Assembly (NCBI GenBank): GCA_032622095.1
Contig: CP136063.1
Span: 27,344,987-27,408,986 of the forward strand
From: Siphonodentalium dalli
Lineage: Eukaryota > Mollusca > Scaphopoda > Gadilida > Siphonodentaliidae
DNA length: 64,000 nucleotides
Direction: 5' to 3'
Below are positions 32,201 to 55,847 of this stretch, piece by piece (within the stretch, counting starts at the first letter, position 1; each line of letters starts with the position of its first letter). Made by a program: the position numbers and the translations under genes. The notes beneath the pieces were generated by a model that was not told the origin of the DNA, searched no databases, and saw only the letters and a list, made by a program, of their open reading frames with translations.

Positions 32201-32696
32201 ACCACTGATTATCTGTTCTGGAGACCATAATTAAACATATATATTTAACCTGGAGTTAACCTGATTATCTGTTCTGGAGAACATAATTAAAGATCGATAT
32301 TTAACCTGGAGTTATTCATGACGAGCACTGATTATCTATTCTGGAGACCACAATTAAACATCGATATATAAGCTGGAGTTCTTCATGGCGGGCAAAGATT
32401 ATCTGCTCTGGTGACCACAATTAAACATCGATATTTAACCTTGAGTTATTCATGACGAGCACTGATTATCTGTTGTGTAGACCATAATTAAACATCGATA
32501 TTTAACCTTGAGTTATTCATGACGGGCACTGATTATCCGTTCTGGATACCATAATTAAACATCGATATTTAACCTGGAGTTCTCATGACGGGCAATGAGT
32601 ATCTGTTCTGGAGGCCATAATTAAAGATCGATATGTTACCTTGAGTTATTCATAACGGGCAATGATTATCAGTTCTGGATACCATAATTAAACATC
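29230..32696 (+). repeat. satellite block adjoining the insertion, copy of 49.0-52.45 kb
   Basis: Variant order matches 48,991-52,458 with an offset of 19,761-19,762 bp. Markers: AACTACATATT (29,318 and 49,079), AACGAGTAGCTGTTC (30,421 and 50,183; 30,868 and 50,630), TAATTACGGCCAATG (31,592 and 51,354). The one-base shift comes from a GGGG versus GGGGG run after CTGTTCT. The block contains the pair of AACGAGTAG units 447 bp apart and the truncated monomer CACTGATTAATTAAACATCG near 30,757. It stops at the inserted element. Confidence 0.85.
32691..32696. repeat. target-site duplication, left copy (AACATC)
   Basis: AACATC directly precedes the first base of the inserted element and reappears directly after its last base at 46,621-46,626. 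The uninterrupted monomer reads AATTAAACATCGATATTTAA with AACATC once, as at the related uninterrupted site 55,360-55,365. The flanks do not extend the duplication: the base before the left copy is A and the base before the right copy is T, the end of the element. Confidence 0.88.
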
Positions 32697-32762
32697 AGTA
32701 GTGTATAGGAGTAATCTTTCCGTATACTTGATAGAAGGAGAGTTATAGTAAGACTTATTAAA

Positions 32763-32889
32763 AACTATTTCTAGGCAGATGGTTATAGTAAGCAAACTAT
32801 TTCTAGGCAGATGGTAATAGTAAGCAAACTATTTCTAGGCAGATGGTATAGTAAGCAAACTATTTCTAGGCAGATGATATAGTCAGGCT
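32763..32889 (+). repeat. subterminal 31-32 bp tandem repeats, left end
   Basis: Four direct copies of a unit starting AACTATTTCTAGGCAGATGG and ending with a TATAGTAAGCA-like stretch, at 32,763, 32,795, 32,827 and 32,858. They start 66 bases inside the element end. The core AACTATTTCTAGG recurs at 33,380 and 33,574, with relatives (AATTATTTCTAGG) near 33,322 and 33,516. Clustered subterminal repeats are where many DNA transposons bind their transposase. That role is inferred here. Confidence 0.88.
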
Positions 32890-32919
32890 AACTAGTAACT
32901 ATTTGAAGGAATTAGTACG

Positions 32920-33255
32920 CACGATTGAATACATGTATTGATATATAGGTTAGTTATGATAGATTAGTAAAATAATGAGATGAATTATTCGCTAGTGAAT
33001 AACCTCGTGTATGTAAAAAACCACAAGGCTAAAACACATGGAATATTTGTTAGTGTCGGAACTGTTTCTTCTTTATTGTAGATTTATAGGTAACACTATT
33101 CGATCTCATAAAACTCGATATTACAGAGTCTCGTAGAAATCTAAATGTGGAACCCAACACTTTAGTTCATGTAATGAATATAAATGGTATAAATAAATCT
33201 TAGTATACAAACAGATATAAAAAAACATAATCAAATCAATCTTTTGTTAAGATAT
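32920..33255 (+). repeat. diverged internal duplication, outer copy (left arm)
   Basis: Shares a degraded pattern with 33,700-33,960: TATTCGCTAGTGAATAACC versus TATTCGTTAGCGAATAAACC, then ATGTAAAAA-CCACAAG-CTAAA-CACAT, then TTCTTC or TTCTTCTGTAGATT, TAGGTAACAC versus TAGGCAACAC, and TAGAAATC-AAATGT. Substitutions and small indels are frequent, so this duplication is much older than the palindrome. The AATAATTCGCTAGTGAATAA segment is itself a near-dyad. Confidence 0.6.
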
Positions 33256-33300
33256 GGACAGTCTGGTCTCCCCGTCGAAATATCTTCTGGCAAAACAGTA

Positions 33301-33670
33301 TCAATATTTAAAGTCAGACTAATTATTTCTAGGTTGGTCATAAAATTACTACTTCTAGTCTATGGGTTATACTCAGGCAAACTATTTCTAGGTTAATCAA
33401 AAATATCAGAGTGGTAAACTAAATCTACAAATATTAATTGGAATATAGAGAAAAGAGTTAGCTCCCCTGTGAATTGTAACAGTATCCAAATGTATCAATA
33501 TTTTAAGTCAGACTAATTATTTCTAGGTTGGTCATAAAATTACTACTTCTAGGCTATGGGTTATACTCAGGCAAACTATTTCTAGGTTAATCAAAAATAT
33601 CAGAGTTGTAAACTAAATCTACAAATATTAATTGGAATATAAAGAAAAGAGTTAGCTCCCCTGTGAATTG
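33301..33670 (+). repeat. 194 bp tandem duplication, left arm
   Basis: The unit starting TCAATATTTAAAGTCAGACT at 33,301 repeats at 33,495 (offset 194). The second copy ends near 33,670, after GCTCCCCTGTGAATTG. Each copy contains TTATTTCTAGGTTGGTC, TACTACTTCTAG, GGTTATACTCAGGC and AACTATTTCTAGGTTAATC, so it carries extra copies of the subterminal CTAGG motif. The copies are nearly identical. A minus-strand frame of 63 codons in the second copy (33,600-33,791) has no recognisable domain. Confidence 0.88.
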
Positions 33671-33699
33671 AATAATCTGTTTTATTAAGTTCAATATAG

Positions 33700-33960
33700 A
33701 TGTTAAACGATTGATATATGTTAATGAATGATACAATGATATATTCGTTAGCGAATAAACCTATGCATGTAAAAACCACAAGTCTAAACACATTGAACTT
33801 TTTTTAGGAACGTTCTTCTGTAGATTAATAGGCAACACATTTCAAAAACACCATTCCATAGTGATAGAAATCGAAATGTATAACCATTATCGGTTCCTTT
33901 AAACATTATGAATGATGGAAATATATTCAAATCAATCAACTTATGTTGGAATATATAAAA
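33700..33960 (+). repeat. diverged internal duplication, inner copy (left arm)
   Basis: Partner of 32,920-33,255. The 194 bp tandem duplication lies between the two copies, as if it expanded inside an older larger duplication. Confidence 0.55.
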
Positions 33961-34512
33961 ATATGTGTATCAAGCATGTTAAATTGTGAATAATTAGTTA
34001 TTTATATCACACCAACGTTAATTCATAATCTATAGTATTTTACGAAAGAAAACTGGAACAAATAGTAACTATTTTCGGTTTATATCAAGACAACGTATTT
34101 CAATTCCAACACAAATTCAATATTTCAGAAAAATTAAAAAAATCTCTCTTTTAATGAAATATTAAATGTAAAAGCACGATAAAACACAATTTAAGTTACT
34201 TTTTCGTCAACAAAATTGAAGTTATATGTTATAATGCTTAAAAATACATCAAAATATGAAAATCAAATATCTCAATTCAAAGCCAAATTTAAAAAAAACA
34301 ATTTCAATGTTAACGGAAACAATTTAACAACAAAAAAATCTTTATCTGTTTTGGCTAGCAAGTATCAAAAGTCCTTTTTCATTCCCACAATAATCGTAAA
34401 ACACAATAAATGTTTTGTCTTTAATAAAAAAAAATATAAAAATATTATAATCATAGTCAAAAAAATTCAAGCACAAACTTTATATGTAAAAAAAATATGA
34501 AAATTAAATAAA
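33961..34512 (+). other. A-rich segment with an uninterpreted 89-codon open frame
   Basis: Unique AT-rich sequence. A frame runs from the ATG at 34,234 to a stop at 34,498-34,500; a TTG six codons upstream would extend it to 34,216. The translation is rich in Lys, Asn and Ile, as any A-rich DNA would give, with no signal peptide, domain or motif I recognise. It is intact on both arms, but the arms are nearly identical, so this is not independent evidence of selection. I do not call it a gene. The rest of the segment shows nothing I can identify. Confidence 0.4.
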
Positions 34513-34932
34513 ACTTACTTGCCTACTAAAGAACAGATCTATCAAAGTACAATTCTCTCTCAATTTTTACCTATGCGAATGTATCTGTTTATATAAGGAA
34601 AAAACATTCTATCTTTAGTCCCAAGCAAATGATGTCATTCGAGGAATCTTTCTTTAAGTCGAATAATCTACCAACATATATCACAAAACATGATGAGGTC
34701 TTCGTCGAGAATTCATGTCCGACTCTGTTTAACATAACAAGACTTACTTACTCATCAAAGAACAGATAATCTATCGAAGTATAATACTGTCTCAATTTTA
34801 CCTATCCGAATGTATCTGTTTATATAAAAAAACATTCATTCTATCTTTAGGTCCCATCAAAATGATGTCATACGACCCAAGTCGAATAATCTAATATCAT
34901 TCGTCGAGAATTCATGTCGAGCTCTAGTTATA
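34513..34932 (+). repeat. 229 bp tandem duplication, left arm
   Basis: Two direct copies begin ACTTACTTGCC at 34,513 and ACTTACTTACTC at 34,742. Shared landmarks are AAAGAACAGAT, CGAATGTATCTGTTTATATA, AACATTC...TATCTTTAG, AATGATGTCAT, AAGTCGAATAATCTA and TCGTCGAGAATTCATGTC. The second copy lacks about 40 bases of the first between the ATGATGTCAT and GAATTCATGTC landmarks. Copies are diverged by many substitutions and indels, so this is older than the 194 bp duplication. Confidence 0.82.
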
Positions 34933-35432
34933 TACAGTAACACATTAATTTACTCAAGCTATCTATACTCCCAAACAAATCAGTCGAGCTATCTTGTTAA
35001 ATGTTCTCGTATGCCTATCATAATGTACCCTCCCATTTTATCCGACCACATGAATAATATAATTCATGTCGACATATATCTGTACAAGGCGACTAATTTA
35101 TTCAACTAGGCTACCCAGCTTGGATCATATTTCAAAGAACTCATTCGTTAACGACCCGTCCTTACAAAACGAATAATTTATACTACACCTGTCAAATTTG
35201 CATATTTAAGGTATGTTACGGTAAACATTCCAATGTATGCTATATAAGCCAGCTAAAATAGGAAATCAAAGCATGGATTCAATAGTCAGATAAGTTTATT
35301 ATATTATGATTTCAGATAACTTTTAATTAATTATTATCTTGTTCAACATATATTCTATGTAATTTAAAACAATATATTATATAAAGTTTCTATATTAATC
35401 GGAGCGAAACATATTGAGGAAGTTTGAAGCAG
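34933..35432 (+). other. AT-rich sequence without identified features, left arm
   Basis: No open frame of note and no repeat unit I can define, apart from scattered TATAT tracts. It includes the C/T arm mismatch at 35,116. Confidence 0.5.
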
Positions 35433-36094
35433 TTGTCTTAAAGTGACACTAAGATTTATTTTCTTATTTGCACACAGTATACTTTGTTTAAACCAGATGT
35501 CTTAAAATGGCACTAAGATTTATTTTATTATTTTATACTATTTATAAACAAGATGTCTTAAAAGGGCACTAAGATTTCATTTAAATCTCCAAAAGTGTTT
35601 CAATATTACAGCAAAATTTGTTTTTTTTAATAATTTTTACCTCAGAATTGTTAATAAATAAGTCTTCTTCACATCTTAATTCTTAAAAGGGCGCTAATAA
35701 TTTAACTCAAATATGGTTGAAAATTTATCGTTAAAGAGCGTTTATTCTCTGCTTGTATGCAACTCTTTCAATCCCTCGTAATATTTGGATACAGTATACT
35801 TTGTTCATCCCAGATATCTTAAAATGAAACTAAGATTTATTTTCTTAATTTATCCATACTATTTATAAACAAGATGTCTTAAAAGGGCACTAAGATTTCA
35901 TTTTATAATTTCAATACCAAAAGTGTTTCAATATCACAGCAACAAAAAAAATTGGAATAATTTTACCCTAGAATTGTTAATAAATAAGTCTTCTTCACAT
36001 CTTAATTCTTAACAGGGCGCTAATAATTTAACTCAAATATGGTTGTACATTTATCGATAAAGAGCGTTTATTATCTGTTTGTATGCAACTCTTA
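35433..36094 (+). repeat. 317 bp tandem duplication with nested GTCTTAAAA...CACTAAGATTT motif, left arm
   Basis: Unit one starts ACAGTATACTTTGTT at 35,474 and unit two at 35,791, ending near 36,094 after TTGTATGCAACTCTT. Nested inside is a shorter motif, GTCTTAAAAGGGCACTAAGA followed by TTT, seen with variants near 35,433, 35,499, 35,558, 35,816 and 35,875. A related TTCTTAAAAGGGCGCTAATA form occurs once in each unit. There are two levels of tandem repetition: 60-70 bp within 317 bp. Confidence 0.82.
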
Positions 36095-36117
36095 ATTATT
36101 TAAAAAAAAAATAAAAC

Positions 36118-36162
36118 GGATACTGTTACACTATTACTTTTAGATAGTATATTACAGTATCC
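36118..36162. repeat. short imperfect hairpin, left arm
   Basis: GGATACTGTTACACTATTAC pairs with GATAGTATATTACAGTATCC around a short CTTTTA loop, with a few mismatches. Similar ACTGT-TACAGT strings occur at 33,476-33,489 and 36,393-36,405. It adjoins the A-rich run where the two arms differ by one base. Its function is unknown. Confidence 0.65.
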
Positions 36163-37195
36163 AAATTAACATTGTTGCAATTCAGATTCTACGGAAAGTT
36201 ATCTTTAAACATGCAAACTAAAAACAATAATCATAGTTTTACAATTTGTTTTTATGTAAAATCTTATTTGTCTACACGTTGTGGCTAAGCAAATCGTAAC
36301 AGTATATTTACATTTATCTAGCAAATGCGCTCTAATTTCTACAAATTAACATTCCAATTCAAATTTTTTATTTTTTTTTGAAAAAATAAATACTGTAACA
36401 GTTTTGTTTACATAATAAATAAAGATAACACTTAACTGATTATGGCAAATAATTCTGCTCTTAATCATAATGGCAACATGAGTTGGAAAAAAAACATGCT
36501 GGTTAATCCGTACGCAATTTAGCATCAGATGTAAACATGCTCGGACAGAAACAATTCCCGGTCGTTCGTTTTTAAACTTACAATTGATGCAGGGTGAAGT
36601 GTCAAGCGTTAAGTTTCAACAAGCAGTGAATGGCCATTATATATCTGATTAATTTACCTTTGTATACAGCATAACGCCCGTGTTGGCATCTGCACGCACG
36701 CTTAAAACTCATTAGTCATTGAAATTTGAAAATTTAGAATAATTATTTATCGCGCATTCATCGTACAGATTTATACGATGAAAGCAAATATAAACTGCGT
36801 ATGTGCACACGACTAATATATACTTTCAATGCTATGCCTATAAATAGTATGCAATTATCTCACAGAATCAATCAAACAATAATATTAAGCTAATTCTGTT
36901 AGTTACACCATTGCATCTGAAATTGCTCGATGTCGTTAGACTATAGGTTAATGTGTGTTTTATATGCATGTTCCCGTTCATTATCTGCACATTTTTAAAT
37001 CGTCACGGAAATCTACCTACTAACATATTTGAACGCACATTATAATTTGGATAGTTAAATCATACATCTTATCACTGGAAAAATATGAATATATGCTCTA
37101 AATCTGTTGGCAGGGCTATTTCAATATACAACATCATATGTATTCAATGTTTCTAATATATAAATTATACCCCAAATTATCATACAAAAAATATG
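36163..37195 (+). other. AT-rich sequence without identified features, left arm
   Basis: Apparently single-copy within the arm. I see no coding frame of useful length, no tandem unit and no RNA-gene signature. Confidence 0.5.
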
Positions 37196-38616
37196 TTTTC
37201 AAGATGGCATCCAATATGGCTATTCAGAAATGTGAGCTTCAAAATATATCCTGATAAAATGTACACATTTACTGTGATCATATATCGTACAACTGGATGT
37301 ATTAACGTTTATAGCGTAATACCTATGCTATCTCCATTACAAAAGATGGCTGCCGAAATGGCCATCGTTTACTTCAAGATACAGGGCTTAAAAATGTATT
37401 GCATTTTTACAAAGGCTCATATGCATCATTTAGGTTTGTAGTTTGTATAGTATATGCTAAATTATCATACAATTTGTCATCACAAAAAAAACCAATATAT
37501 ATTTTCAAGATGGCGTCCAATATGGCTATTCAGAAATGTCAGCTTCAAAATATATCTTGATAAAATGTACACATTTGCTGTGATCATATATCGTACAACT
37601 GGATGTATTAGCGTTTATAGCGTAATACCTATGCTATCTCCATTACAAAAGATGGCTGCCGAAATGGCCATCGTTTACTTCAAGATACAGGGCTTAAAAA
37701 TGTATTGCATTTTTACAAAGGCTCATATGCATCATTTAGGTTTGTAGTTTGTATAGTATATGCTAAATTATCATACAATTTGTCATCACAAAAAAAATAT
37801 ATATATATTTTCAAGATGGCGTCCAATATGGCTATTCAGAAATGTCAGCTTCAAAATATATCTTGATAAAATGTACACATTTGCTGTGATCATATATCGT
37901 ACAACTGGATGTATTAACGTTTGTAGCGTAATACCTATGCTATCTCCATTACAAAAGATGGCTTCCAAAATGGCCATCGTTTACTTCAAGATACAGGGCT
38001 TAAAAATGTATTGCATTTTTACAAAGGCTCATATGCATCATTTAGGTTTGTAGTTTGTATAGTATATGCTAAATTATCATACAATTTGTCATCACAAAAA
38101 AAAAAACAATATATATTTTCAAGATGGCGTCCAATGTGGCTATTCAGAAATGTCAGCTTCAAAATATATCTTGATAAAATGTACACATTTGCTGTGATCA
38201 TATATCGTACAACTGGATGTATTAGCGTTTATAGCGTAATACCTATGCTATCTCCATTACAAAAGATGGCTGCCGAAATGGCCATCGTTTACTTCAAGAT
38301 ACAGGGCTTAAAAATGTATTGCATTTTTACAAAGGCTCATATGCATCATTTAGGTTTGTAGTTTGTATAGTATATGCCAAATTATCATACAATTTGTCTT
38401 CACAAAAAAAAACAATATATATTTTCAAGATGGCGTCCAATATGGCTATTCAGAAATGTCAGCTTCAAAATATATCATGATAAAATGTACACATTTGCTG
38501 TGATCATATATCGTACAACTGGATGTATTAGCGTTTATAGCGTAATACCTATGCTATCTCTATTACAAAAGATGGCTTCCAAAATGGCCACCTTTACTCT
38601 AAAATACAGAGCTTAA
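37196..38616 (+). repeat. 306 bp tandem repeat, about 4.6 copies, left arm
   Basis: Copies start at TTTTCAAGATGGC: 37,196, 37,502, 37,808, 38,116 and 38,422 (periods 306, 306, 308, 306). The last is cut short near 38,616. Every unit holds AAGATGGCGTCCAATATGGC, CAGCTTCAAAATATATC, TGTGATCATATATCGTACAA, AAAAGATGGCT(G/T)CC, AAATGGCCATC and a poly-A stretch whose length differs between units. Open frames of 80-116 codons cross the units because 306 is a multiple of three. The unit-to-unit changes I compared in that frame (Asn/Ser, Tyr/Cys, Ile/Met, Ala-Glu/Ser-Lys) are all amino-acid-changing, so there is no sign of protein-level constraint. I treat it as non-coding. Confidence 0.93.
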
Positions 38617-39211
38617 AATTACATGCATAATTTAGAAAGTTGATTTTGATTAGTTATACTACTTATTTCTTCAAAGAGTTAATATTTCCTTATTCTTATC
38701 ACAGTTTTAAAAACAATCAACAAAAATCTTCATTGTGTATCATATAATGAGTTCTTGGTAGGCTATCTCATTGTACAACATATACGTATTTATATTTGTT
38801 TGTAATATCCAATGGAGTATTTCGTAAATAAAGTTGTCAAATGCTATAATATAATATAAACTCTCAATATCAAAGTATTAAACAAACGAAAAAATAGTCA
38901 CAGAGCCGTCCCATGGGGTAGAATCCCTCTAATACATATCTCATACACAATATTACTTTGTTTTAAACCGAGTTGTGTGGAACATCGACATTTTAATATC
39001 ATTTTAATCAACCGTTCTAGAACAAATTACTTACACAATCTTTTCTTAAAAGCTGTTAAAAAAAATTGTCTACCTAATTCACAATTATTTTTTTGCTAGG
39101 TTCGTAGTATTATCATATGGAGCGTAGGTTCGAAAACGAAATTAGTAAGAATGCTTTTTTTTGGTAGTGGGAATGTGTCACGGGTAAATTCTGCTATAAT
39201 TCACTTAATGC
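38617..39211 (+). other. AT-rich sequence without identified features, left arm
   Basis: No frame, tandem unit or RNA signature seen. It contains the arm differences at 38,901 (C versus T) and 38,957-38,959 (one extra T). Confidence 0.5.
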
Positions 39212-39420
39212 TATGTTTTCAAGATGGCGTCCAATATGGCAACTGAGAACTGTGAGCTTCAAAATATATCTGATAAATTGTATGCCTTAGTTAATATGAT
39301 CACATAATTATGCGCTTGGCTGTCTTCGCGTTGATAACGTATTAGCAACGCTGACCCCATTATAAAATGGCAAACATTTACTTCAAAATATACAGCTTCA
39401 GAGAAATGTTCGGTATTTTA
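39212..39420 (+). repeat. decayed sixth copy of the 306 bp unit, left arm
   Basis: Starts TGTTTTCAAGATGGCGTCCA with ATATGGC as in the 306 bp units, then GTGAGCTTCAAAATATATCT, ATGATCACATAATTATGCG, CCCCATTATAAAATGGC, ACATTTACTTCAAAATATAC. The order of landmarks matches the units at 37,196-38,616, but spacing and bases are heavily changed. It is an old copy separated from the main tandem by about 600 bp. Confidence 0.75.
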
Positions 39421-39653
39421 CAAAATAAGACCGAGTGATATTTTGTCTTTCTTCTCGAAATGTATGAACAAAACAAGAGATGATATACATTACAAACAAC
39501 TGAAATGTAGTCAGTTGACGACCACTATACACAAAAATAAATTTGATTACTGCCAACACAGTGTCAGAATTGAAAAATAAATAGTAAATGTGTATCATAA
39601 ACACTATAATATCGCATTGAATATTCATTTTATTTATTTATATTATGTCGACC
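39421..39653 (+). other. innermost part of the left arm
   Basis: A 76-codon frame on the minus strand (39,398-39,628) overlaps this stretch and has its mirror twin at 39,691-39,921 on the plus strand. The predicted product is hydrophobic and aromatic-rich, without a domain I recognise. I do not call it a gene. The arm ends at ATTATGTCGACC beside the spacer. Confidence 0.45.
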
Positions 39654-39665
39654 TTATGTAAAACG
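39654..39665. other. 12-base spacer at the palindrome centre
   Basis: TTATGTAAAACG separates the arm tips GTCGACC (left) and GGTCGGC (right). With so short a spacer the element could extrude as a cruciform or snap back to a hairpin of nearly 7 kb. The single mismatch beside it (39,648 against 39,671) and the non-palindromic spacer make the centre resolvable in sequencing. Confidence 0.9.
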
Positions 39666-39898
39666 GGTCGGCATAATATAAATAAATAAAATGAATATTC
39701 AATGCGATATTATAGTGTTTATGATACACATTTACTATTTATTTTTCAATTCTGACACTGTGTTGGCAGTAATCAAATTTATTTTTGTGTATAGTGGTCG
39801 TCAACTGACTACATTTCAGTTGTTTGTAATGTATATCATCTCTTGTTTTGTTCATACATTTCGAGAAGAAAGACAAAATATCACTCGGTCTTATTTTG

Positions 39899-40107
39899 TA
39901 AAATACCGAACATTTCTCTGAAGCTGTATATTTTGAAGTAAATGTTTGCCATTTTATAATGGGGTCAGCGTTGCTAATACGTTATCAACGCGAAGACAGC
40001 CAAGCGCATAATTATGTGATCATATTAACTAAGGCATACAATTTATCAGATATATTTTGAAGCTCACAGTTCTCAGTTGCCATATTGGACGCCATCTTGA
40101 AAACATA
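39899..40107 (-). repeat. decayed copy of the 306 bp unit, right arm
   Basis: Mirror of 39,212-39,420; contains GCCATATTGGACGCCATCTT near its right end. Confidence 0.75.
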
Positions 40108-40701
40108 GCATTAAGTGAATTATAGCAGAATTTACCCGTGACACATTCCCACTACCAAAAAAAAGCATTCTTACTAATTTCGTTTTCGAACCTACGCTCC
40201 ATATGATAATACTACGAACCTAGCAAAAAAATAATTGTGAATTAGGTAGACAATTTTTTTTAACAGCTTTTAAGAAAAGATTGTGTAAGTAATTTGTTCT
40301 AGAACGGTTGATTAAAATGATATTAAAATGTCGATGTTCCACACAACTCGGTTTAAAACAAGTAATATTGTGTATGAGATATGTATTAGAGGGATTCTAC
40401 CCCATGGGACGGCTCTATGACTATTTTTTCGTTTGTTTAATACTTTGATATTGAGAGTTTATATTATATTATAGCATTTGACAACTTTATTTACGAAATA
40501 CTCCATTGGATATTACAAACAAATATAAATACGTATATGTTGTACAATGAGATAGCCTACCAAGAACTCATTATATGATACACAATGAAGATTTTTGTTG
40601 ATTGTTTTTAAAACTGTGATAAGAATAAGGAAATATTAACTCTTTGAAGAAATAAGTAGTATAACTAATCAAAATCAACTTTCTAAATTATGCATGTAAT
40701 T
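40108..40701 (-). other. AT-rich sequence without identified features, right arm
   Basis: Mirror of 38,617-39,211. Nothing further is recognised. Confidence 0.5.
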
Positions 40702-42122
40702 TTAAGCTCTGTATTTTAGAGTAAAGGTGGCCATTTTGGAAGCCATCTTTTGTAATAGAGATAGCATAGGTATTACGCTATAAACGCTAATACATCCAGT
40801 TGTACGATATATGATCACAGCAAATGTGTACATTTTATCATGATATATTTTGAAGCTGACATTTCTGAATAGCCATATTGGACGCCATCTTGAAAATATA
40901 TATTGTTTTTTTTTGTGAAGACAAATTGTATGATAATTTGGCATATACTATACAAACTACAAACCTAAATGATGCATATGAGCCTTTGTAAAAATGCAAT
41001 ACATTTTTAAGCCCTGTATCTTGAAGTAAACGATGGCCATTTCGGCAGCCATCTTTTGTAATGGAGATAGCATAGGTATTACGCTATAAACGCTAATACA
41101 TCCAGTTGTACGATATATGATCACAGCAAATGTGTACATTTTATCAAGATATATTTTGAAGCTGACATTTCTGAATAGCCACATTGGACGCCATCTTGAA
41201 AATATATATTGTTTTTTTTTTTGTGATGACAAATTGTATGATAATTTAGCATATACTATACAAACTACAAACCTAAATGATGCATATGAGCCTTTGTAAA
41301 AATGCAATACATTTTTAAGCCCTGTATCTTGAAGTAAACGATGGCCATTTTGGAAGCCATCTTTTGTAATGGAGATAGCATAGGTATTACGCTACAAACG
41401 TTAATACATCCAGTTGTACGATATATGATCACAGCAAATGTGTACATTTTATCAAGATATATTTTGAAGCTGACATTTCTGAATAGCCATATTGGACGCC
41501 ATCTTGAAAATATATATATATTTTTTTTGTGATGACAAATTGTATGATAATTTAGCATATACTATACAAACTACAAACCTAAATGATGCATATGAGCCTT
41601 TGTAAAAATGCAATACATTTTTAAGCCCTGTATCTTGAAGTAAACGATGGCCATTTCGGCAGCCATCTTTTGTAATGGAGATAGCATAGGTATTACGCTA
41701 TAAACGCTAATACATCCAGTTGTACGATATATGATCACAGCAAATGTGTACATTTTATCAAGATATATTTTGAAGCTGACATTTCTGAATAGCCATATTG
41801 GACGCCATCTTGAAAATATATATTGGTTTTTTTTGTGATGACAAATTGTATGATAATTTAGCATATACTATACAAACTACAAACCTAAATGATGCATATG
41901 AGCCTTTGTAAAAATGCAATACATTTTTAAGCCCTGTATCTTGAAGTAAACGATGGCCATTTCGGCAGCCATCTTTTGTAATGGAGATAGCATAGGTATT
42001 ACGCTATAAACGTTAATACATCCAGTTGTACGATATATGATCACAGTAAATGTGTACATTTTATCAGGATATATTTTGAAGCTCACATTTCTGAATAGCC
42101 ATATTGGATGCCATCTTGAAAA
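40702..42122 (-). repeat. 306 bp tandem repeat, about 4.6 copies, right arm
   Basis: Mirror of 37,196-38,616. The copy-specific variants (for example GTGTGGC in one unit, GTTTGTAGCG in another) sit in the mirror-image units. So the tandem array was already five units long, with these variants, before the palindrome formed or was last homogenised. Confidence 0.93.
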
Positions 42123-43155
42123 CATATTTTTTGTATGATAATTTGGGGTATAATTTATATATTAGAAACATTGAATACATATGATGTTGTATATTGAAAT
42201 AGCCCTGCCAACAGATTTAGAGCATATATTCATATTTTTCCAGTGATAAGATGTATGATTTAACTATCCAAATTATAATGTGCGTTCAAATATGTTAGTA
42301 GGTAGATTTCCGTGACGATTTAAAAATGTGCAGATAATGAACGGGAACATGCATATAAAACACACATTAACCTATAGTCTAACGACATCGAGCAATTTCA
42401 GATGCAATGGTGTAACTAACAGAATTAGCTTAATATTATTGTTTGATTGATTCTGTGAGATAATTGCATACTATTTATAGGCATAGCATTGAAAGTATAT
42501 ATTAGTCGTGTGCACATACGCAGTTTATATTTGCTTTCATCGTATAAATCTGTACGATGAATGCGCGATAAATAATTATTCTAAATTTTCAAATTTCAAT
42601 GACTAATGAGTTTTAAGCGTGCGTGCAGATGCCAACACGGGCGTTATGCTGTATACAAAGGTAAATTAATCAGATATATAATGGCCATTCACTGCTTGTT
42701 GAAACTTAACGCTTGACACTTCACCCTGCATCAATTGTAAGTTTAAAAACGAACGACCGGGAATTGTTTCTGTCCGAGCATGTTTACATCTGATGCTAAA
42801 TTGCGTACGGATTAACCAGCATGTTTTTTTTCCAACTCATGTTGCCATTATGATTAAGAGCAGAATTATTTGCCATAATCAGTTAAGTGTTATCTTTATT
42901 TATTATGTAAACAAAACTGTTACAGTATTTATTTTTTCAAAAAAAAATAAAAAATTTGAATTGGAATGTTAATTTGTAGAAATTAGAGCGCATTTGCTAG
43001 ATAAATGTAAATATACTGTTACGATTTGCTTAGCCACAACGTGTAGACAAATAAGATTTTACATAAAAACAAATTGTAAAACTATGATTATTGTTTTTAG
43101 TTTGCATGTTTAAAGATAACTTTCCGTAGAATCTGAATTGCAACAATGTTAATTT
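42123..43155 (-). other. AT-rich sequence without identified features, right arm
   Basis: Mirror of 36,163-37,195. No gene or repeat was defined. Confidence 0.5.
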
Positions 43156-43200
43156 GGATACTGTAATATACTATCTAAAAGTAATAGTGTAACAGTATCC
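43156..43200. repeat. short imperfect hairpin, right arm
   Basis: Mirror of 36,118-36,162. The adjacent T-run (43,202-43,215) is one base shorter than the matching left-arm A-rich run, and the left run is interrupted by a T. Confidence 0.65.
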
Positions 43201-43222
43201 GTTTTTTTTTTTTTTAAATAAT

Positions 43223-43884
43223 TAAGAGTTGCATACAAACAGATAATAAACGCTCTTTATCGATAAATGTACAACCATATTTGAGTTAAATTATTAGCGC
43301 CCTGTTAAGAATTAAGATGTGAAGAAGACTTATTTATTAACAATTCTAGGGTAAAATTATTCCAATTTTTTTTGTTGCTGTGATATTGAAACACTTTTGG
43401 TATTGAAATTATAAAATGAAATCTTAGTGCCCTTTTAAGACATCTTGTTTATAAATAGTATGGATAAATTAAGAAAATAAATCTTAGTTTCATTTTAAGA
43501 TATCTGGGATGAACAAAGTATACTGTATCCAAATATTACGAGGGATTGAAAGAGTTGCATACAAGCAGAGAATAAACGCTCTTTAACGATAAATTTTCAA
43601 CCATATTTGAGTTAAATTATTAGCGCCCTTTTAAGAATTAAGATGTGAAGAAGACTTATTTATTAACAATTCTGAGGTAAAAATTATTAAAAAAAACAAA
43701 TTTTGCTGTAATATTGAAACACTTTTGGAGATTTAAATGAAATCTTAGTGCCCTTTTAAGACATCTTGTTTATAAATAGTATAAAATAATAAAATAAATC
43801 TTAGTGCCATTTTAAGACATCTGGTTTAAACAAAGTATACTGTGTGCAAATAAGAAAATAAATCTTAGTGTCACTTTAAGACAA
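43223..43884 (-). repeat. 317 bp tandem duplication with nested motif, right arm
   Basis: Mirror of 35,433-36,094; units at about 43,223-43,526 and 43,527-43,843. Confidence 0.82.
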
Positions 43885-44384
43885 CTGCTTCAAACTTCCT
43901 CAATATGTTTCGCTCCGATTAATATAGAAACTTTATATAATATATTGTTTTAAATTACATAGAATATATGTTGAACAAGATAATAATTAATTAAAAGTTA
44001 TCTGAAATCATAATATAATAAACTTATCTGACTATTGAATCCATGCTTTGATTTCCTATTTTAGCTGGCTTATATAGCATACATTGGAATGTTTACCGTA
44101 ACATACCTTAAATATGCAAATTTGACAGGTGTAGTATAAATTATTCGTTTTGTAAGGACGGGTCGTTAACGAATGAGTTCTTTGAAATATGATCCAAGCT
44201 AGGTAGCCTAGTTGAATAAATTAGTCGCCTTGTACAGATATATGTCGACATGAATTATATTATTCATGTGGTCGGATAAAATGGGAGGGTACATTATGAT
44301 AGGCATACGAGAACATTTAACAAGATAGCTCGACTGATTTGTTTGGGAGTATAGATAGCTTGAGTAAATTAATGTGTTACTGTA
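43885..44384 (-). other. AT-rich sequence without identified features, right arm
   Basis: Mirror of 34,933-35,432. It carries the arm mismatch at 44,201 (paired with 35,116). Confidence 0.5.
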
Positions 44385-44804
44385 TATAACTAGAGCTCGA
44401 CATGAATTCTCGACGAATGATATTAGATTATTCGACTTGGGTCGTATGACATCATTTTGATGGGACCTAAAGATAGAATGAATGTTTTTTTATATAAACA
44501 GATACATTCGGATAGGTAAAATTGAGACAGTATTATACTTCGATAGATTATCTGTTCTTTGATGAGTAAGTAAGTCTTGTTATGTTAAACAGAGTCGGAC
44601 ATGAATTCTCGACGAAGACCTCATCATGTTTTGTGATATATGTTGGTAGATTATTCGACTTAAAGAAAGATTCCTCGAATGACATCATTTGCTTGGGACT
44701 AAAGATAGAATGTTTTTTCCTTATATAAACAGATACATTCGCATAGGTAAAAATTGAGAGAGAATTGTACTTTGATAGATCTGTTCTTTAGTAGGCAAGT
44801 AAGT
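44385..44804 (-). repeat. 229 bp tandem duplication, right arm
   Basis: Mirror of 34,513-34,932; copies at about 44,385-44,575 and 44,576-44,804. Confidence 0.82.
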
Positions 44805-45356
44805 TTTATTTAATTTTCATATTTTTTTTACATATAAAGTTTGTGCTTGAATTTTTTTGACTATGATTATAATATTTTTATATTTTTTTTTATTAAAGAC
44901 AAAACATTTATTGTGTTTTACGATTATTGTGGGAATGAAAAAGGACTTTTGATACTTGCTAGCCAAAACAGATAAAGATTTTTTTGTTGTTAAATTGTTT
45001 CCGTTAACATTGAAATTGTTTTTTTTAAATTTGGCTTTGAATTGAGATATTTGATTTTCATATTTTGATGTATTTTTAAGCATTATAACATATAACTTCA
45101 ATTTTGTTGACGAAAAAGTAACTTAAATTGTGTTTTATCGTGCTTTTACATTTAATATTTCATTAAAAGAGAGATTTTTTTAATTTTTCTGAAATATTGA
45201 ATTTGTGTTGGAATTGAAATACGTTGTCTTGATATAAACCGAAAATAGTTACTATTTGTTCCAGTTTTCTTTCGTAAAATACTATAGATTATGAATTAAC
45301 GTTGGTGTGATATAAATAACTAATTATTCACAATTTAACATGCTTGATACACATAT
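44805..45356 (-). other. A-rich segment with uninterpreted open frame, right arm
   Basis: Mirror of 33,961-34,512. The matching frame lies at 44,817-45,083 on the minus strand from its first ATG. It is not called a gene, for the reasons given for the left copy. Confidence 0.4.
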
Positions 45357-45617
45357 TTTTATATATTCCAACATAAGTTGATTGATTTGAATATATTTCC
45401 ATCATTCATAATGTTTAAAGGAACCGATAATGGTTATACATTTCGATTTCTATCACTATGGAATGGTGTTTTTGAAATGTGTTGCCTATTAATCTACAGA
45501 AGAACGTTCCTAAAAAAAGTTCAATGTGTTTAGACTTGTGGTTTTTACATGCATAGGTTTATTCGCTAACGAATATATCATTGTATCATTCATTAACATA
45601 TATCAATCGTTTAACAT
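45357..45617 (-). repeat. diverged internal duplication, inner copy (right arm)
   Basis: Mirror of 33,700-33,960. Confidence 0.55.
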
Positions 45618-45646
45618 CTATATTGAACTTAATAAAACAGATTATT

Positions 45647-46016
45647 CAATTCACAGGGGAGCTAACTCTTTTCTTTATATTCCAATTAATATTTGTAGAT
45701 TTAGTTTACAACTCTGATATTTTTGATTAACCTAGAAATAGTTTGCCTGAGTATAACCCATAGCCTAGAAGTAGTAATTTTATGACCAACCTAGAAATAA
45801 TTAGTCTGACTTAAAATATTGATACATTTGGATACTGTTACAATTCACAGGGGAGCTAACTCTTTTCTCTATATTCCAATTAATATTTGTAGATTTAGTT
45901 TACCACTCTGATATTTTTGATTAACCTAGAAATAGTTTGCCTGAGTATAACCCATAGACTAGAAGTAGTAATTTTATGACCAACCTAGAAATAATTAGTC
46001 TGACTTTAAATATTGA
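45647..46016 (-). repeat. 194 bp tandem duplication, right arm
   Basis: Mirror of 33,301-33,670; copies at 45,647-45,822 and 45,823-46,016. Confidence 0.88.
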
Positions 46017-46061
46017 TACTGTTTTGCCAGAAGATATTTCGACGGGGAGACCAGACTGTCC

Positions 46062-46397
46062 ATATCTTAACAAAAGATTGATTTGATTATGTTTTTTGAT
46101 ATCTGTTTGTATACTAAAATTTATTTATACCATTTATATTCATTACATGAACTAAAGTGTTGGGTTCCACATTTAGATTTCTACGAGACTCTGTAATATC
46201 GAGTTTTATGAGATCGAATAGTGTTACCTATAAATCTACAATAAAGAAGAAACAGTTCCGACACTAACAAATATTCCATGTGTTTTAGCCTTGTGGTTTT
46301 TTACATACACGAGGTTATTCACTAGCGAATAATTCATCTCATTATTTTACTAATCTATCATAACTAACCTATATATCAATACATGTATTCAATCGTG
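46062..46397 (-). repeat. diverged internal duplication, outer copy (right arm)
   Basis: Mirror of 32,920-33,255. It holds two of the arm mismatches, at 46,098 and 46,118. Confidence 0.6.
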
Positions 46398-46427
46398 CGT
46401 ACTAATTCCTTCAAATAGTTACTAGTT

Positions 46428-46554
46428 AGCCTGACTATATCATCTGCCTAGAAATAGTTTGCTTACTATACCATCTGCCTAGAAATAGTTTGCTTACTAT
46501 TACCATCTGCCTAGAAATAGTTTGCTTACTATAACCATCTGCCTAGAAATAGTT
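46428..46554 (-). repeat. subterminal 31-32 bp tandem repeats, right end
   Basis: Four copies of CCATCTGCCTAGAAATAGTT, the reverse complement of the left-end unit, stopping 66 bases from the element end. The same copy-to-copy differences (TTATAG, TAATAG, TATAG, ATATAG) are mirrored. Confidence 0.88.
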
Positions 46555-46620
46555 TTTAATAAGTCTTACTATAACTCTCCTTCTATCAAGTATACGGAAA
46601 GATTACTCCTATACACTACT

Positions 46621-46626
46621 AACATC
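46621..46626. repeat. target-site duplication, right copy (AACATC)
   Basis: Follows the terminal CACTACT of the element and continues directly into GATATTTAACCTGGAG of a normal monomer, completing the monomer interrupted at 32,696. Confidence 0.88.
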
Positions 46627-46755
46627 GATATTTAACCTGGAGTTCTCATGACGGGCAATGATTATCTGTTCTGGAGACCATAATTAAACATTGATATTTT
46701 ACCTGGAGTTCTCATGACGGGCAATGAGTATCTGTTCTGGAGACCATAATTAAAG

Positions 46756-48452
46756 ATCGATATTTAACCTGGAGTTCTCATGACGGGCAATGAGTATCTG
46801 TTCTGGAGACCATAATTAAAGATCGATATTTAACCTGGAGTTCTCATGACGGGCAATGAGTATCTGTTCTGGAGACCATAATTAAAGATCGATATGTTAC
46901 CTTGAGTTATTCATAACGGGCAGTGATTATCTGTTCTGGAGACCATAATTAAAGATCGATATTTAACCTTGAGTTATTCATAACGGGCAATGATTATCTG
47001 TTCTGGAGACCATAATTAAACATCGATATTTATCCTGAAATTATTCATAACGGTCACTGATTATCTGTTCTGGAGACCATAATTAAACATCGATATTTAT
47101 CCTTGAGTTATTCATGACGGGCACTGATTATCTGTTCTGGAGACCATAATTAAATATCGATATTTAACCTGGAGTTCTCATGACGGGCAATGAGTATCTG
47201 TTCTGGAGACCATAATTAAAGACTGATATGTTACCTTGAGTTATTCATAACGGTCAATGCTTATCTGTTCTGGAGACCATAATTAAAGATCGATATTTAA
47301 CCTGGAGTTCTCATGACGGGCAATGATTATCTGTTCTGGAGGCCGTAATTAAAGATTGATATTTAACCTGGAGTTATTCATAACTACATATTTAACCTGG
47401 TGTTCTCATAACGGGCACTGATTATCTGTTCTGGAGACCATAACTATATATCGATATTTAATCTGGAGTTATTCATGACGGGCACTGATTATCTGTTCTG
47501 GGGGACCATAATTAAACATCGATATTTAACCTTGAGTTATTCATGACGGGCACTGATTATCTGTTCTGGAGACCATAATTAAACATATATATTTAACCTG
47601 GAGTTCTCATGACCGGCAATGAGTATCTGTTCTGGAGACCATAATTAAAGACTGATATGTTACCTTGAGTTATTCATAACGGTCAATGCTTATCTGTTCT
47701 GGAGACCATAATTAAAGATCGATATTTAACCTTGAGTTATTCATAACGGGCAATGATTATCTGTTCTGGAGACTATAAATAAACATCAATTATTATCCTG
47801 GAATTATTCATAACGGTCACTGATTATCTGTTCTGGAGACCATAATTAAGGATCGATATTTAACTTGGTGTTCTCATGATGGTCACTGATTATCTGTTCT
47901 GGAGACCATAATTAAAGATCGACATTTATCCTGGAATTATTCATAACGGTCACTGATTATCTGTTCTGGAGACCGTAATTAAAGATCGATATTTAGCCTG
48001 GAGTTATTCATGATGACCACTGATCATCTGTTCTGGATACCTTAATTAAACATCGATATGTAACCTGGAGTGCTCATGACGGGCAATGATTATCTGTTCT
48101 GGAGACCGTAATTAAAGATCGATATTTAATCTGGAGTTATTCATGACGAGCAATGATTATCTGTCCTTGAGACCACAAATAAACATCGATATTTAACCTG
48201 GAGCTATTCATGACGAGCACTGATTATCTGTTCTGGAGACCACAATTAAACATCGATATTTAAGCTGGAGTTCTTCATGGCGGGCAATGATTATCTGCTC
48301 TGGATACCACAATTAAACATCGATATTTAACCTTGAGTTATTCATGACGAGCACTGATTATCTGTTGTGTAGACCATAATTAAACATCGATATTTAACCT
48401 TGAGTTATTCATGACGGGCACTGATTATCCGTTCTGGATACCATAATTAAAC
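46756..48452 (+). repeat. 1,697 bp higher-order satellite repeat, copy 1
   Basis: A block of about 25 monomers that repeats directly at 48,453-50,149. Markers at exact offset 1,697: AACTACATATT (47,382 and 49,079) and the five-G run in CTGTTCTGGGGGACC (47,500 and 49,197). The phase of the boundary is arbitrary. A related single copy lies at 28.9-30.4 kb with four Gs in place of five. Confidence 0.88.
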
Positions 48453-50149: not shown

Positions 50150-52506
50150 ATCGATATTTAACCTGGAGTTCTCATGACGGGCAACGAGTAGCTGTTCTGG
50201 AGACCATAATTAAAGATCGATATGTTACCTTGAGTTATTTATAACGGGCAGTGATTATCTGTTCTGGAGACCATAATTAAAGATCGATATTTAACCTTGA
50301 GTTATTCATAACGGGCAATGATTATCTGTTCTGGAGACCATAATTAAACATCGATATTTATCCTGAAATTATTCATAACGGTCACTGATTATATGTGCTG
50401 GAGACCATAATTAAGGATCGATATTTAACCTGGAGTTCTCATGCCGGGCACTGATTATGTGTTCTGGAGTCCGTAAATAAAGATTTATATTTAACCTGGT
50501 TTCTCATGACGGGCACTGATTAATTAAACATCGATATTTAACCTTGAGTTATTCATGACGGGCACTGATTATCCGTTCTGGATACCATAATTAAACATCG
50601 ATATTTAACCTGGAGTTCTCATGACGGGCAACGAGTAGCTGTTCTGGAGACCATAATTAAAGATCGATATGTTACCTTGAGTTATTCATAACGGGCAGTG
50701 ATTATCTGTTCTGGAGACCATAATTAAAGATCGATATTTAACCTTGAGTTATTCATAACGGGCAATGATTATCTGTTCTGGAGACCATAACTAAATATCG
50801 ATATTTAACCTGGAGTTATTCATGATGGGCACTGATTATCTGTTCTGGAAACCATGACCAAACATCGATATTTAACCTGAAGTTCTCATGACGGAAACTG
50901 ATTATCTGTTCTGGAGACCGTAATTAAAGATTGATATTTAACCTGGAGTTCTCATGACGGGCAGTGATTATCTGTTCTGGAGATCATAATTAAACATCGA
51001 TATTTAACCTGGAGTTATTCATGACGAGCAATGATGATCTGTCCTGGAGACCATAATTAAAAGTCGGTATTTAACCTGGAGTCATTCATGACGGGCACTG
51101 ATTATCTGTTCTGGACTCCATAATTAAACATCGATATTTATCCTTGAGTTATTCAAAACGTGCAATGATTATCTGTTCTGGAGACAATAATTAATGATCG
51201 ATATTTAACCTTGAGTTATTCAAAACGGGCAATGATTATCTGTTCTGGAGACCGTAATTAAATATCGATATATATCCTGGAGTTATTCATGACGGGCACT
51301 GATTATCTGTTCAGGAGACCATAATTAAACATCGATATTTAACCTGGAGTTATTAATTACGGCCAATGTTTATTTGTTCTGGAGACCATAATTAAAGGTC
51401 GATATTTAACCTCGAGTTATTCAAAACGGGCAATGATTATATGTTCTGGAGACATTAACTGAATATCGATAGTTAACCAGGAGTTATTCATGACGGGCAC
51501 TGATTATCAGTTCAGGAGACCATAATTAAACATCGATATTTAACCTGGAGTTCCTCTTGACGAGCACTTTATTATCTGTTCTGGAGACCACAATTAAACA
51601 TCGATATTTAACCTGGAGTTCTCATGACGGGCAATGAGTATCTGTTCTGGAGACCATAAATAAATATCGTTATTTAACCTGGAGTTATTCATGACGACCA
51701 CTGATTATCTGTTCTGGAGACCATAATTAAACATATATATTTAACCTGGAGTTCTCATGACGGGCAATGATTATCTGTTCTGGAGACCATAATTAAAGAT
51801 CGATATTTAACCTTCAGTTATTCAAAACGGGCAATGATTATCTGTTCTGGAGACGATAATTAAACATCGATATTTAACCTGGAGTTCTCATGACGGGCAA
51901 TGATTATCTGTTCTGGAGACCATAATTAAAGATCGATATTTAACCTGGAGTTATTCATGACGACCACTGATTATCTGTTCTGGAGACCATAATTAAACAT
52001 ATATATTTAACCTGGAGTTAACCTGATTATCTGTTCTGGAGACCATAATTAAAGATCGATATTTAACCTGGAGTTATTCATGACGAGCACTGATTATCTA
52101 TTCTGGAGACCACAATTAAACATCGATATATAAGCTGGAGTTCTTCATGGCGGGCAAAGATTATCTGCTCTGGTGACCACAATTAAACATCGATATTTAA
52201 CCTTGAGTTATTCATGACGAGCACTGATTATCTGTTGTGTAGACCATAATTAAACATCGATATTTAACCTTGAGTTATTCATGACGGGCACTGATTATCC
52301 GTTCTGGATACCATAATTAAACATCGATATTTAACCTGGAGTTCTCATGACGGGCAGTGAGTATCTGTTCTGGAGGCCATAATTAAAGATCGATATGTTA
52401 CCTTGAGTTATTCATAACGGGCAATGATTATCAGTTCTGGATACCATAATTAAACATCGATATTTAACCTGGAGTTCTCATGACGGGCAATGATTATCTG
52501 TTCTGG
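49600..52506 (+). repeat. 2,907 bp higher-order satellite repeat, copy 1
   Basis: Markers at exact offset 2,907 from copy 2: GACATTTATCCTGG (49,618 and 52,525), AACGAGTAGCTG (50,183 and 53,090; 50,630 and 53,537), TAATTACGGCCAATG (51,354 and 54,261). The block contains an internal 447 bp spacing between two AACGAGTAG units and the truncated monomer CACTGATTAATTAAACATCG at about 50,515. The same block, without the duplication, abuts the left side of the transposon. Confidence 0.88.
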
Positions 52507-55413
52507 AGACCATAATTAAAGATCGACATTTATCCTGGAATTATTCATAACGGTCACTGATTATCTGTTCTGGAGACCGTAATTAAAGATCGATATTTAG
52601 CCTGGAGTTATTCATGATGACCACTGATCATCTGTTCTGGATACCTTAATTAAACATCGATATGTAACCTGGAGTGCTCATGACGGGCAATGATTATCTG
52701 TTCTGGAGACCGTAATTAAAGATCGATATTTAATCTGGAGTTATTCATGACGAGCAATGATTATCTGTCATTGAGACCACAAATAAACATCGATATTTAA
52801 CCTGGAGCTATTCATGACGAGCACTGATTATCTGTTCTGGAGACCACAATTAAACATCGATATTTAAGCTGGAGTTCTTCATGGCGGGCAATGATTATCT
52901 GCTCTGGATACCACAATTAAACATCGATATTTAACCTTGAGTTATTCATGACGAGCACTGATTATCTGTTGTGTAGACCATAATTAAACATCGATATTTA
53001 ACCTTGAGTTATTCATGACGGGCACTGATTATCCGTTCTGGATACCATAATTAAACATCGATATTTAACCTGGAGTTCTCATGACGGGCAACGAGTAGCT
53101 GTTCTGGAGACCATAATTAAAGATCGATATGTTACCTTGAGTTATTTATAACGGGCAGTGATTATCTGTTCTGGAGACCATAATTAAAGATCGATATTTA
53201 ACCTTGAGTTATTCATAACGGGCAATGATTATCTGTTCTGGAGACCATAATTAAACATCGATATTTATCCTGAAATTATTCATAACGGTCACTGATTATA
53301 TGTGCTGGAGACCATAATTAAGGATCGATATTTAACCGGGAGTTCTCATGCCGGGCACTGATTATGTGTTCTGGAGTCCGTAAATAAAGATTTATATTTA
53401 ACCTGGTTTCTCATGACGGGCACTGATTAATTAAACATCGATATTTAACCTTGAGTTATTCATGACGGGCACTGATTATCCGTTCTGGATACCATAATTA
53501 AACATCGATATTTAACCTGGAGTTCTCATGACGGGCAACGAGTAGCTGTTCTGGAGACCATAATTAAAGATCGATATGTTACCTTGAGTTATTCATAACG
53601 GGCAGTGATTATCTGTTCTGGAGACCATAATTAAAGATCGATATTTAACCTTGAGTTATTCATAACGGGCAATGATTATCTGTTCTGGAGACCATAACTA
53701 AATATCGATATTTAACCTGGAGTTATTCATGATGGGCACTGATTATCTGTTCTGGAAACCATGACCAAACATCGATATTTAACCTGAAGTTCTCATGACG
53801 GAAACTGATTATCTGTTCTGGAGACCGTAATTAAAGATTGATATTTAACCTGGAGTTCTCATGACGGGCAGTGATTATCTGTTCTGGAGATCATAATTAA
53901 ACATCGATATTTAACCTGGAGTTATTCATGACGAGCAATGATGATCTGACCTGGAGACCATAATTAAAAGTCGGTATTTAACCTGGAGTCATTCATGACG
54001 GGCACTGATTATCTGTTCTGGACTCCATAATTAAACATCGATATTTATCCTTGAGTTATTCAAAACGTGCAATGATTATCTGTTCTGGAGACAATAATTA
54101 ATGATCGATATTTAACCTTGAGTTATTCAAAACGGGCAATGATTATCTGTTCTGGAGACCGTAATTAAATATCGATATATATCCTGGAGTTATTCATGAC
54201 GGGCACTGATTATCTGTTCAGGAGACCATAATTAAACATCGATATTTAACCTGGAGTTATTAATTACGGCCAATGTTTATTTGTTCTGGAGACCATAATT
54301 AAAGGTCGATATTTAACCTCGAGTTATTCAAAACGGGCAATGATTATATGTTCTGGAGACATTAACTGAATATCGATAGTTAACCAGGAGTTATTCATGA
54401 CGGGCACTGATTATCAGTTCAGGAGACCATAATTAAACATCGATATTTAACCTGGAGTTCCTCTTGACGAGCACTTTATTATCTGTTCTGGAGACCACAA
54501 TTAAACATCGATATTTAACCTGGAGTTCTCATGACGGGCAATGAGTATCTGTTCTGGAGACCATAAATAAATATCGTTATTTAACCTGGAGTTATTCATG
54601 ACGACCACTGATTATCTGTTCTGGAGACCATAATTAAACATATATATTTAACCTGGAGTTCTCATGACGGGCAATGATTATCTGTTCTGGAGACCATAAT
54701 TAAAGATCGATATTTAACCTTCAGTTATTCAAAACGGGCAATGATTATCTGTTCTGGAGACGATAATTAAACATCGATATTTAACCTGGAGTTCTCATGA
54801 CGGGCAATGATTATCTGTTCTGGAGACCATAATTAAAGATCGATATTTAACCTGGAGTTATTCATGACGACCACTGATTATCTGTTCTGGAGACCATAAT
54901 TAAACATATATATTTAACCTGGAGTTAACCTGATTATCTGTTCTGGAGACCATAATTAAAGATCGATATTTAACCTGGAGTTATTCATGACGAGCACTGA
55001 TTATCTATTCTGGAGACCACAATTAAACATCGATATATAAGCTGGAGTTCTTCATGGCGGGCAAAGATTATTTGCTCTGGTGACCACAATTAAACATCGA
55101 TATTTAACCTTGAGTTATTCATGACGAGCACTGATTATCTGTTGTGTAGACCATAATTAAACATCGATATTTAACCTTGAGTTATTCATGACGGGCACTG
55201 ATTATCCGTTCTGGATACCATAATTAAACATCGATATTTAACCTGGAGTTCTCATGACGGGCAATGAGTATCTGTTCTGGAGGCCATAATTAAAGATCGA
55301 TATGTTACCTTGAGTTATTCATAACGGGCAATGATTATCAGTTCTGGATACCATAATTAAACATCGATATTTAACCTGGAGTTCTCATGACGGGCAATGA
55401 TTATCTGTTCTGG
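52507..55413 (+). repeat. 2,907 bp higher-order satellite repeat, copy 2
   Basis: Second copy, with scattered single-base differences such as CTGACCTGGAG in place of CTGTCCTGGAG near 53,948 and TTTGCTCTGG near 55,070. Its end carries the uninterrupted version of the transposon target at 55,360-55,365. A further partial copy of the order restarts at about 63.0 kb and leaves the window. Confidence 0.88.
55360..55365. other. uninterrupted paralogue of the insertion site
   Basis: Here the sequence found left of the element (GGATACCATAATTAAACATC) runs directly into the sequence found right of it (GATATTTAACCTGGAG), with AACATC present once. Left similarity is unbroken over the roughly 110 bases I compared (32,581-32,690). 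Right similarity continues for about 430 bp with two differences noted (ATTGATATTTT against ATCGATATTTT, and GTTCTCATG against GTTCTATG). Confidence 0.85.
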
Positions 55414-55847
55414 AGACCATAATTAAACATCGATATTTTACCTGGAGTTCTATGACGGGCAATGAGTATCTGTTCTGGAGACCATAATTAAAGATCGATA
55501 TTTAACCTGGAGTTCTCATGACGGGCAATGAGTATCTGTTCTGGAGACCATAATTAAAGATCGATATTTAACCTGGAGTTCTCATGACGGGCAATGAGTA
55601 TCTGTTCTGGAGACCATAATTAAAGATCGATATGTTACCTTGAGTTATTCATAACGGGCAGTGATTATCTGTTCTGGAGACCATAATTAAAGATCGATAT
55701 TTAACCTTGAGTTATTCATAACGGGCAATGATTATCTGTTCTGGAGACCATAATTAAACATCGATATTTATCCTGAAATTATTCATAACGGTCATTGATT
55801 ATCTGTGCTGGAGACCATAATTAAGGATCGATATTTAACCTGGAGTT

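Follow-up and report, generated by a model that had tools for sequence, protein, structure and literature searches.

The window (the whole 64,000-nucleotide stretch of Siphonodentalium dalli DNA analyzed here) consists of satellite DNA, with a unit of ~67 bp, that is interrupted by one element. Alignment of the sequence to its own reverse complement reveals that this element, at 32697-46620, is a 13,924-base palindrome (Table 1). Over ~6955 bases, its left and right arms are ~99.9% identical, with 5 substitutions and two 1-base indels between them. The substitutions lie at arm positions 503, 523, 2420, 6205, and 6952, the one-base indels lie at 3416 and 6261, and transitions account for 4 of the 5 substitutions. 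Chance is no possible source of a 7-kb inverted repeat. Structure prediction places the 12-base spacer between the arms, TTATGTAAAACG, in a hairpin loop, and the mirror symmetry breaks off on either side precisely where the AACATC duplication begins.

Table 1. Coordinates of the palindromic element, its internal repeats, and related satellite features, given as positions in the window
Feature	Position	Strand	Remarks
Left target-site duplication AACATC	32691..32696	.	Read directly; single copy in the empty duplicate
Left arm	32697..39653	+	6957 bases, starts AGTAGTG; from self-alignment
32 bp subterminal tandem repeat	32762..32883	+	3.9 copies, four TATTTCTAGG motifs; left arm
194 bp subterminal repeat	33298..33670	+	1.9 copies, four more TATTTCTAGG motifs; left arm
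306 bp tandem repeat	37191..38618	+	4.7 copies; inner left arm
Spacer TTATGTAAAACG	39654..39665	.	12 bases, flanked by CGACC/GGTCG, next a T/G mismatch; from self-alignment
Right arm	39666..46620	-	6955 bases, finishes CACTACT; from self-alignment
Mirror of 306 bp tandem repeat	40700..42127	-	Right arm
Mirror of 194 bp repeat	45647..46019	-	Right arm
Mirror of 32 bp subterminal array	46434..46555	-	Right arm
Right target-site duplication AACATC	46621..46626	.	Read directly; single copy in the empty duplicate
Flanking-satellite duplicate without the element	52490..55825	+	Copy of 29822-32696 plus 46627-47087; limits approximate
Unoccupied target site, single AACATC	55360..55365	+	From alignment of the satellite duplicate
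95-base period	17749-17932, 21241-21424, 29229-29412, 47293-47476, 48990-49173, 61171-61354		Satellite

The flanks of the element are made of the same ~67 bp satellite, which keeps one orientation on both sides. When the two flanks are joined with one AACATC removed, their best match lies 22.7 kb further on, at 55166-55564 of the window, and extends over 400 bp with 1 mismatch and 1 gap. Because a satellite duplicate of ~3.3 kb holds the same site empty, the event was a true insertion: 13.9 kb of DNA with two identical AGTAGTG ends entered a single AACATC, which became a 6 bp duplication. Given the empty site, the palindrome did not originate from a simple inversion or fold-back breakpoint. 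The original prediction, which described near-perfect arms of ~6.96 kb around a 12-base spacer, precise ends AGTAGTG...CACTACT with AACATC on both sides, flanking satellite in one orientation, and an insertion in place of a simple breakpoint, is therefore borne out at this locus.

Over 3250 counted positions, the copies of the duplicated satellite block differ by 13 substitutions and 1 indel, the limits of that count having been chosen after the alignment was inspected. Substitutions are fewer between the arms (5/6954) than between the block copies (13/3250; Fisher p = 0.0005). Because the arms differ less than the block copies, the palindrome probably arose after the block was duplicated, although this dating is a suggestion only, since conversion can homogenize satellites and palindromes alike. 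The ~3.3 kb block, 22.7 kb from its counterpart, is 99.6% identical to it, compared with ~85% for the long self-alignments of the array, and it is a recent segmental copy within the satellite array. Also, at six places in the satellite there is a 95-base period with a shared consensus ending ATTCATAACTAC, perhaps a shortened-unit marker of higher-order copies.

Each arm carries three sets of tandem repeats. Examination of the left arm showed that the motif TATTTCTAGG occurs eight times on one strand, is confined to the outer ~890 bp (32697-33586), and is absent from the remaining 6 kb of the arm; the arrangement is mirrored in the right arm. The 9-base core of the motif is absent from the satellite. 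Moreover, the 32 bp and 194 bp arrays, which are otherwise different, have stretches with a 16-mer in common, GCAAACTATTTCTAGG, while the longest stretch shared in 2000 shuffles of the two array stretches was 13 bases. These TATTTCTAGG iterons are putative binding sites near the end of the element. At arm position 6516-6671, there is also a diverged relative (~76%) of part of the 306 bp repeat unit.

Stop-to-stop frames of at least 60 codons number 20 in the left arm and 39 in the whole element; the coding scans were run on the left arm, to which the right arm is 99.9% the same. The longest left-arm frame falls within the 306 bp tandem repeat and has 144 codons, and the longest frame in 100 dinucleotide shuffles of the arm has a mean of 94 codons and a maximum of 146. 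The fifth-longest frame (94 codons) exceeds the shuffle mean of 67 for that rank, and several of the frames are copies of the 306 bp repeat. Once this repeat is cut out, the longest frame is 101 codons, and 18 of 100 shuffles have a frame at least as long. A Pfam search with 10 of the 20 left-arm frames of at least 60 codons returned a best E value of 0.036, every match falling below its curated cut-off, while a PHROGs search with 10 of the 20 returned a best E value of 0.012, to a family with no ascribed function, which we take as chance. The six whole left-arm frames, read with X at stops and run against Pfam without a positive control, gave a best E value of 0.19, with no match near the cut-off, and contained none of the Maverick genes or fragments looked for (polymerase, integrase, ATPase, protease, and capsid). 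Rfam gave no match on 30000-48000. By frame counts against shuffles, Pfam, and Rfam, no coding capacity and no coding core were detected in the element, in keeping with what had been predicted from the sequence.

We found no further copy of the element within the 64-kb window. Exact patterns, one for the element end, two for the satellite, and two for arm repeat units, had 0 matches each, four of them against viral contigs and one against genome contigs, and a blastn search of phage records with 6956 bases of the left arm had no match. Absence from these collections says little, because they cover viruses, phages, bacteria, and archaea.

The ends of the element point to a known group. The ends most common among intact vertebrate Mavericks are (AGT)2 at 5' and (ACT)2 at 3'; these elements also have 6 bp duplications, are 12,723-24,620 bp long, and carry terminal repeats of 46-1,447 bp (PMC8097293). 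Among the proteins encoded by Mavericks are a protein-primed polymerase and a retrovirus-like integrase (PMC6431247). The element described here begins with AGTAGT at 32697 and finishes with ACTACT at 46620, a motif documented for vertebrates that may not be that of the host's Mavericks, and it has the 6 bp AACATC on both sides, present once in the empty duplicate. It thus resembles intact vertebrate Mavericks in its (AGT)2//(ACT)2 ends, inverted terminal repeats, and 6 bp duplication, and its 13.9 kb fall inside their range of 12.7-24.6 kb (PMC8097293). However, no gene was detected here, whereas intact vertebrate Mavericks have genes for polymerase, integrase, ATPase, protease, and capsid proteins; the arms, at 6.96 kb, are 4.8 times the 1,447 bp of the longest terminal repeat among those intact elements; and, instead of terminal repeats of hundreds of bases around a core, the repeat is the whole element, with no core beyond 12 bases.

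Taken from the sequence, the assignment of the end type to Maverick/Polinton is well supported. The suggestion in the original prediction of an undescribed family of giant fold-back transposon finds no support in that form, because (AGT)2//(ACT)2 with a 6 bp duplication is the end structure of Mavericks/Polintons (PMC8097293). The element is best described as Maverick-ended and non-autonomous, with arms longer than intact vertebrate Maverick repeats. Tests for Maverick genes and for the usual core found neither, and for this reason we do not class the element among Mavericks proper; since no Maverick gene or fragment was found, its membership rests on 6 bp ends and the length of the duplication. 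In the open-licence literature matching at least three of our search terms, the phrases "non-autonomous Polinton," "nonautonomous Maverick," and "non-autonomous Maverick" are absent, and among the open-licence matches listed no title or abstract opening describes a palindromic Maverick.

Several other systems were compared. A CACTA transposon was considered, as the right end contains CACTA, and was rejected, as CACTA elements start with that sequence. IS3EU and GingerRoot elements have a 6 bp duplication and TA..TA ends, or occasionally TG..CA in GingerRoot, and were rejected by this definition (PMC10045372), since the element has AG..CT ends. A 488 bp unclassified palindromic repeat is mentioned in PMC3630058. 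In cryptophyte polinton-like viruses the inverted terminal repeats measure hundreds to thousands of bp, long as they are here, and some of these viruses have 6 bp duplications; yet they carry genes, and the filter described in that source, which accepted repeats from 100 bp up to 8 kb, required the repeats to be separated by no less than 6 kb, whereas the element has a 12-base spacer (PMC12220804). Among the endogenous mavirus-like elements of Cafeteria, 3 of 33 complete elements are truncated and nevertheless have inverted ends, as here; these terminal repeats "must have regenerated," for which the section of the source on regenerated repeats gives no mechanism (PMC8547959). In that survey, terminal repeats span 0.2-2.3 kb over the 33 elements, and the types described carry genes and mostly have duplications of 3-5 bp, with whole-length palindromes unmentioned in the parts of the source that describe them (PMC8547959).

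We propose that this is a non-autonomous element mobilized by Maverick proteins, and that it became a palindrome through the folding back of a replicating strand close to where the spacer now lies, a reading that we consider probable as a whole; the fold-back step itself is one that we infer. An autonomous Maverick elsewhere in the host would supply the protein-primed DNA polymerase and the retrovirus-like integrase for replication and integration, and these proteins would act on the terminal AGTAGT and perhaps also on the subterminal TATTTCTAGG repeats. During replication, the displaced single strand of a gene-less parent would break near its middle, and its 3' end would fold back on a short inverted repeat, CGACC...GGTCG, that still flanks the 12-base spacer. 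Extension of the folded strand to its own end would yield a hairpin with one authentic end, from which the next round would copy around the hairpin, producing a complete palindrome whose two ends are identical and functional. Each tip of such a palindrome would have both an origin and an end for integration, and therefore one kind of end would suffice for it to persist.

Parts of this model have parallels in other systems. Protein-primed replication displaces single strands, as established for adenovirus, which makes its protein-primed start by jumping back on a reiterated end; the reiterated 3-base end of the element would suit a start of this kind. The symmetric defective genomes of adenovirus and the ribosomal DNA palindrome of Tetrahymena are likewise mirror-image molecules; each has a single type of end and a short center that is not palindromic, and both are attributed to fold-back. 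They differ from the element in that they carry genes and do not integrate with a 6 bp duplication. The truncated mavirus-like elements with regenerated terminal repeats offer a further precedent (PMC8547959). The unoccupied site in the window and the eight same-strand iterons of the outer ~890 bp also speak for this reading.

The center of the palindrome can be read in the light of the same model. It consists of CGACC, twelve bases, and GGTCG, followed by a T opposite a G, which is the arm substitution at the sixth base from the loop. With 5 substitutions over 6955 bases, one so near the center has a probability of ~0.4% by chance (a hand calculation, for a feature noticed post hoc), and the T/G substitution fits what a mismatched fold-back primer would leave. 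Against the model, chance alone often produces a 5 bp seed around a 12-base loop, and the position of 2 of the 5 arm substitutions, close to the outer end, is slightly more in line with in-place conversion.

In-place conversion would begin with an ordinary Maverick-type insert, bearing short terminal repeats, that later suffered a break in its core, after which the left half was copied by fold-back until it met the right terminal repeat, so that the palindrome formed within the chromosome. It is a real rival, if an unlikely one, because it would likewise preserve both ends and the duplication. The two outer substitutions, at 503 and 523, fall within the outermost 7.5% of the arm, where they would be expected under in-place conversion if the outer terminal repeats were older than the inner arm, but this is weak evidence, with a probability of ~5% by chance (hand calculation). 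In-place conversion also demands an exact hand-over within the right terminal repeat. Moreover, the arm holds no detected gene relic, though the palindrome is young as judged by arm identity, and so under this rival the parent must already have been gene-less.

A less probable alternative still is that the element belongs to a separate fold-back family, built like Galileo or Drosophila Foldback and moved by a transposase of its own, and that its AGTAGT ends and 6 bp duplication are a coincidence. Two-repeat copies of Galileo, of the P superfamily, lack transposase and consist almost entirely of long inverted repeats, and internal tandem repeats occur in some of them, as here (PMC3573991). However, Galileo has arms of up to ~1.26 kb in copies of 1.7-2.2 kb overall on average, and its 7 bp duplication contrasts with the 6 bp found here (PMC3573991). 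Also, a six-base end would match one motif by chance with a probability of ~1/4096, or ~3/4096 for three Maverick motifs (hand calculation).

Long-read palindrome artifacts are a real phenomenon. Terminal repeats and nearby host repeats have occasionally upset the assembly of related elements (PMC8547959), but an assembly or library artifact that mirrored one half of a normal element is very improbable at this locus, where the flanks share one orientation with a target duplication, the empty site reveals two true ends, and the arms differ at 7 places with 4 of the 5 substitutions being transitions, as expected of real mutations.

If the palindrome did arise by fold-back during protein-primed replication, a broader notion can be entertained, which we hold tentatively and, with one copy examined, regard as somewhat doubtful: gene-less palindromic replicons may parasitize Mavericks, with a fold-back-doubled end replicating and integrating as a self-perpetuating lineage.

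To our knowledge, the replication mode of Mavericks has mostly been inferred from their genes. If Mavericks replicate by protein priming and strand displacement, an integrated mirror-image derivative whose ends are intact is what one would expect, and the element would then be a sequence-level trace of that replication intermediate. A palindromic Maverick-ended element would also suggest that one end suffices for both replication and integration. If the assembly is right, a near-perfect palindrome of ~14 kb can persist in satellite DNA. Were parasitic palindromic replicons to exist, they would be the host-genome counterpart of the defective mirror-image genomes of protein-primed viruses, and, if they were transcribed through, ~7 kb of double-stranded RNA could feed small-RNA silencing of the Mavericks that share their ends.
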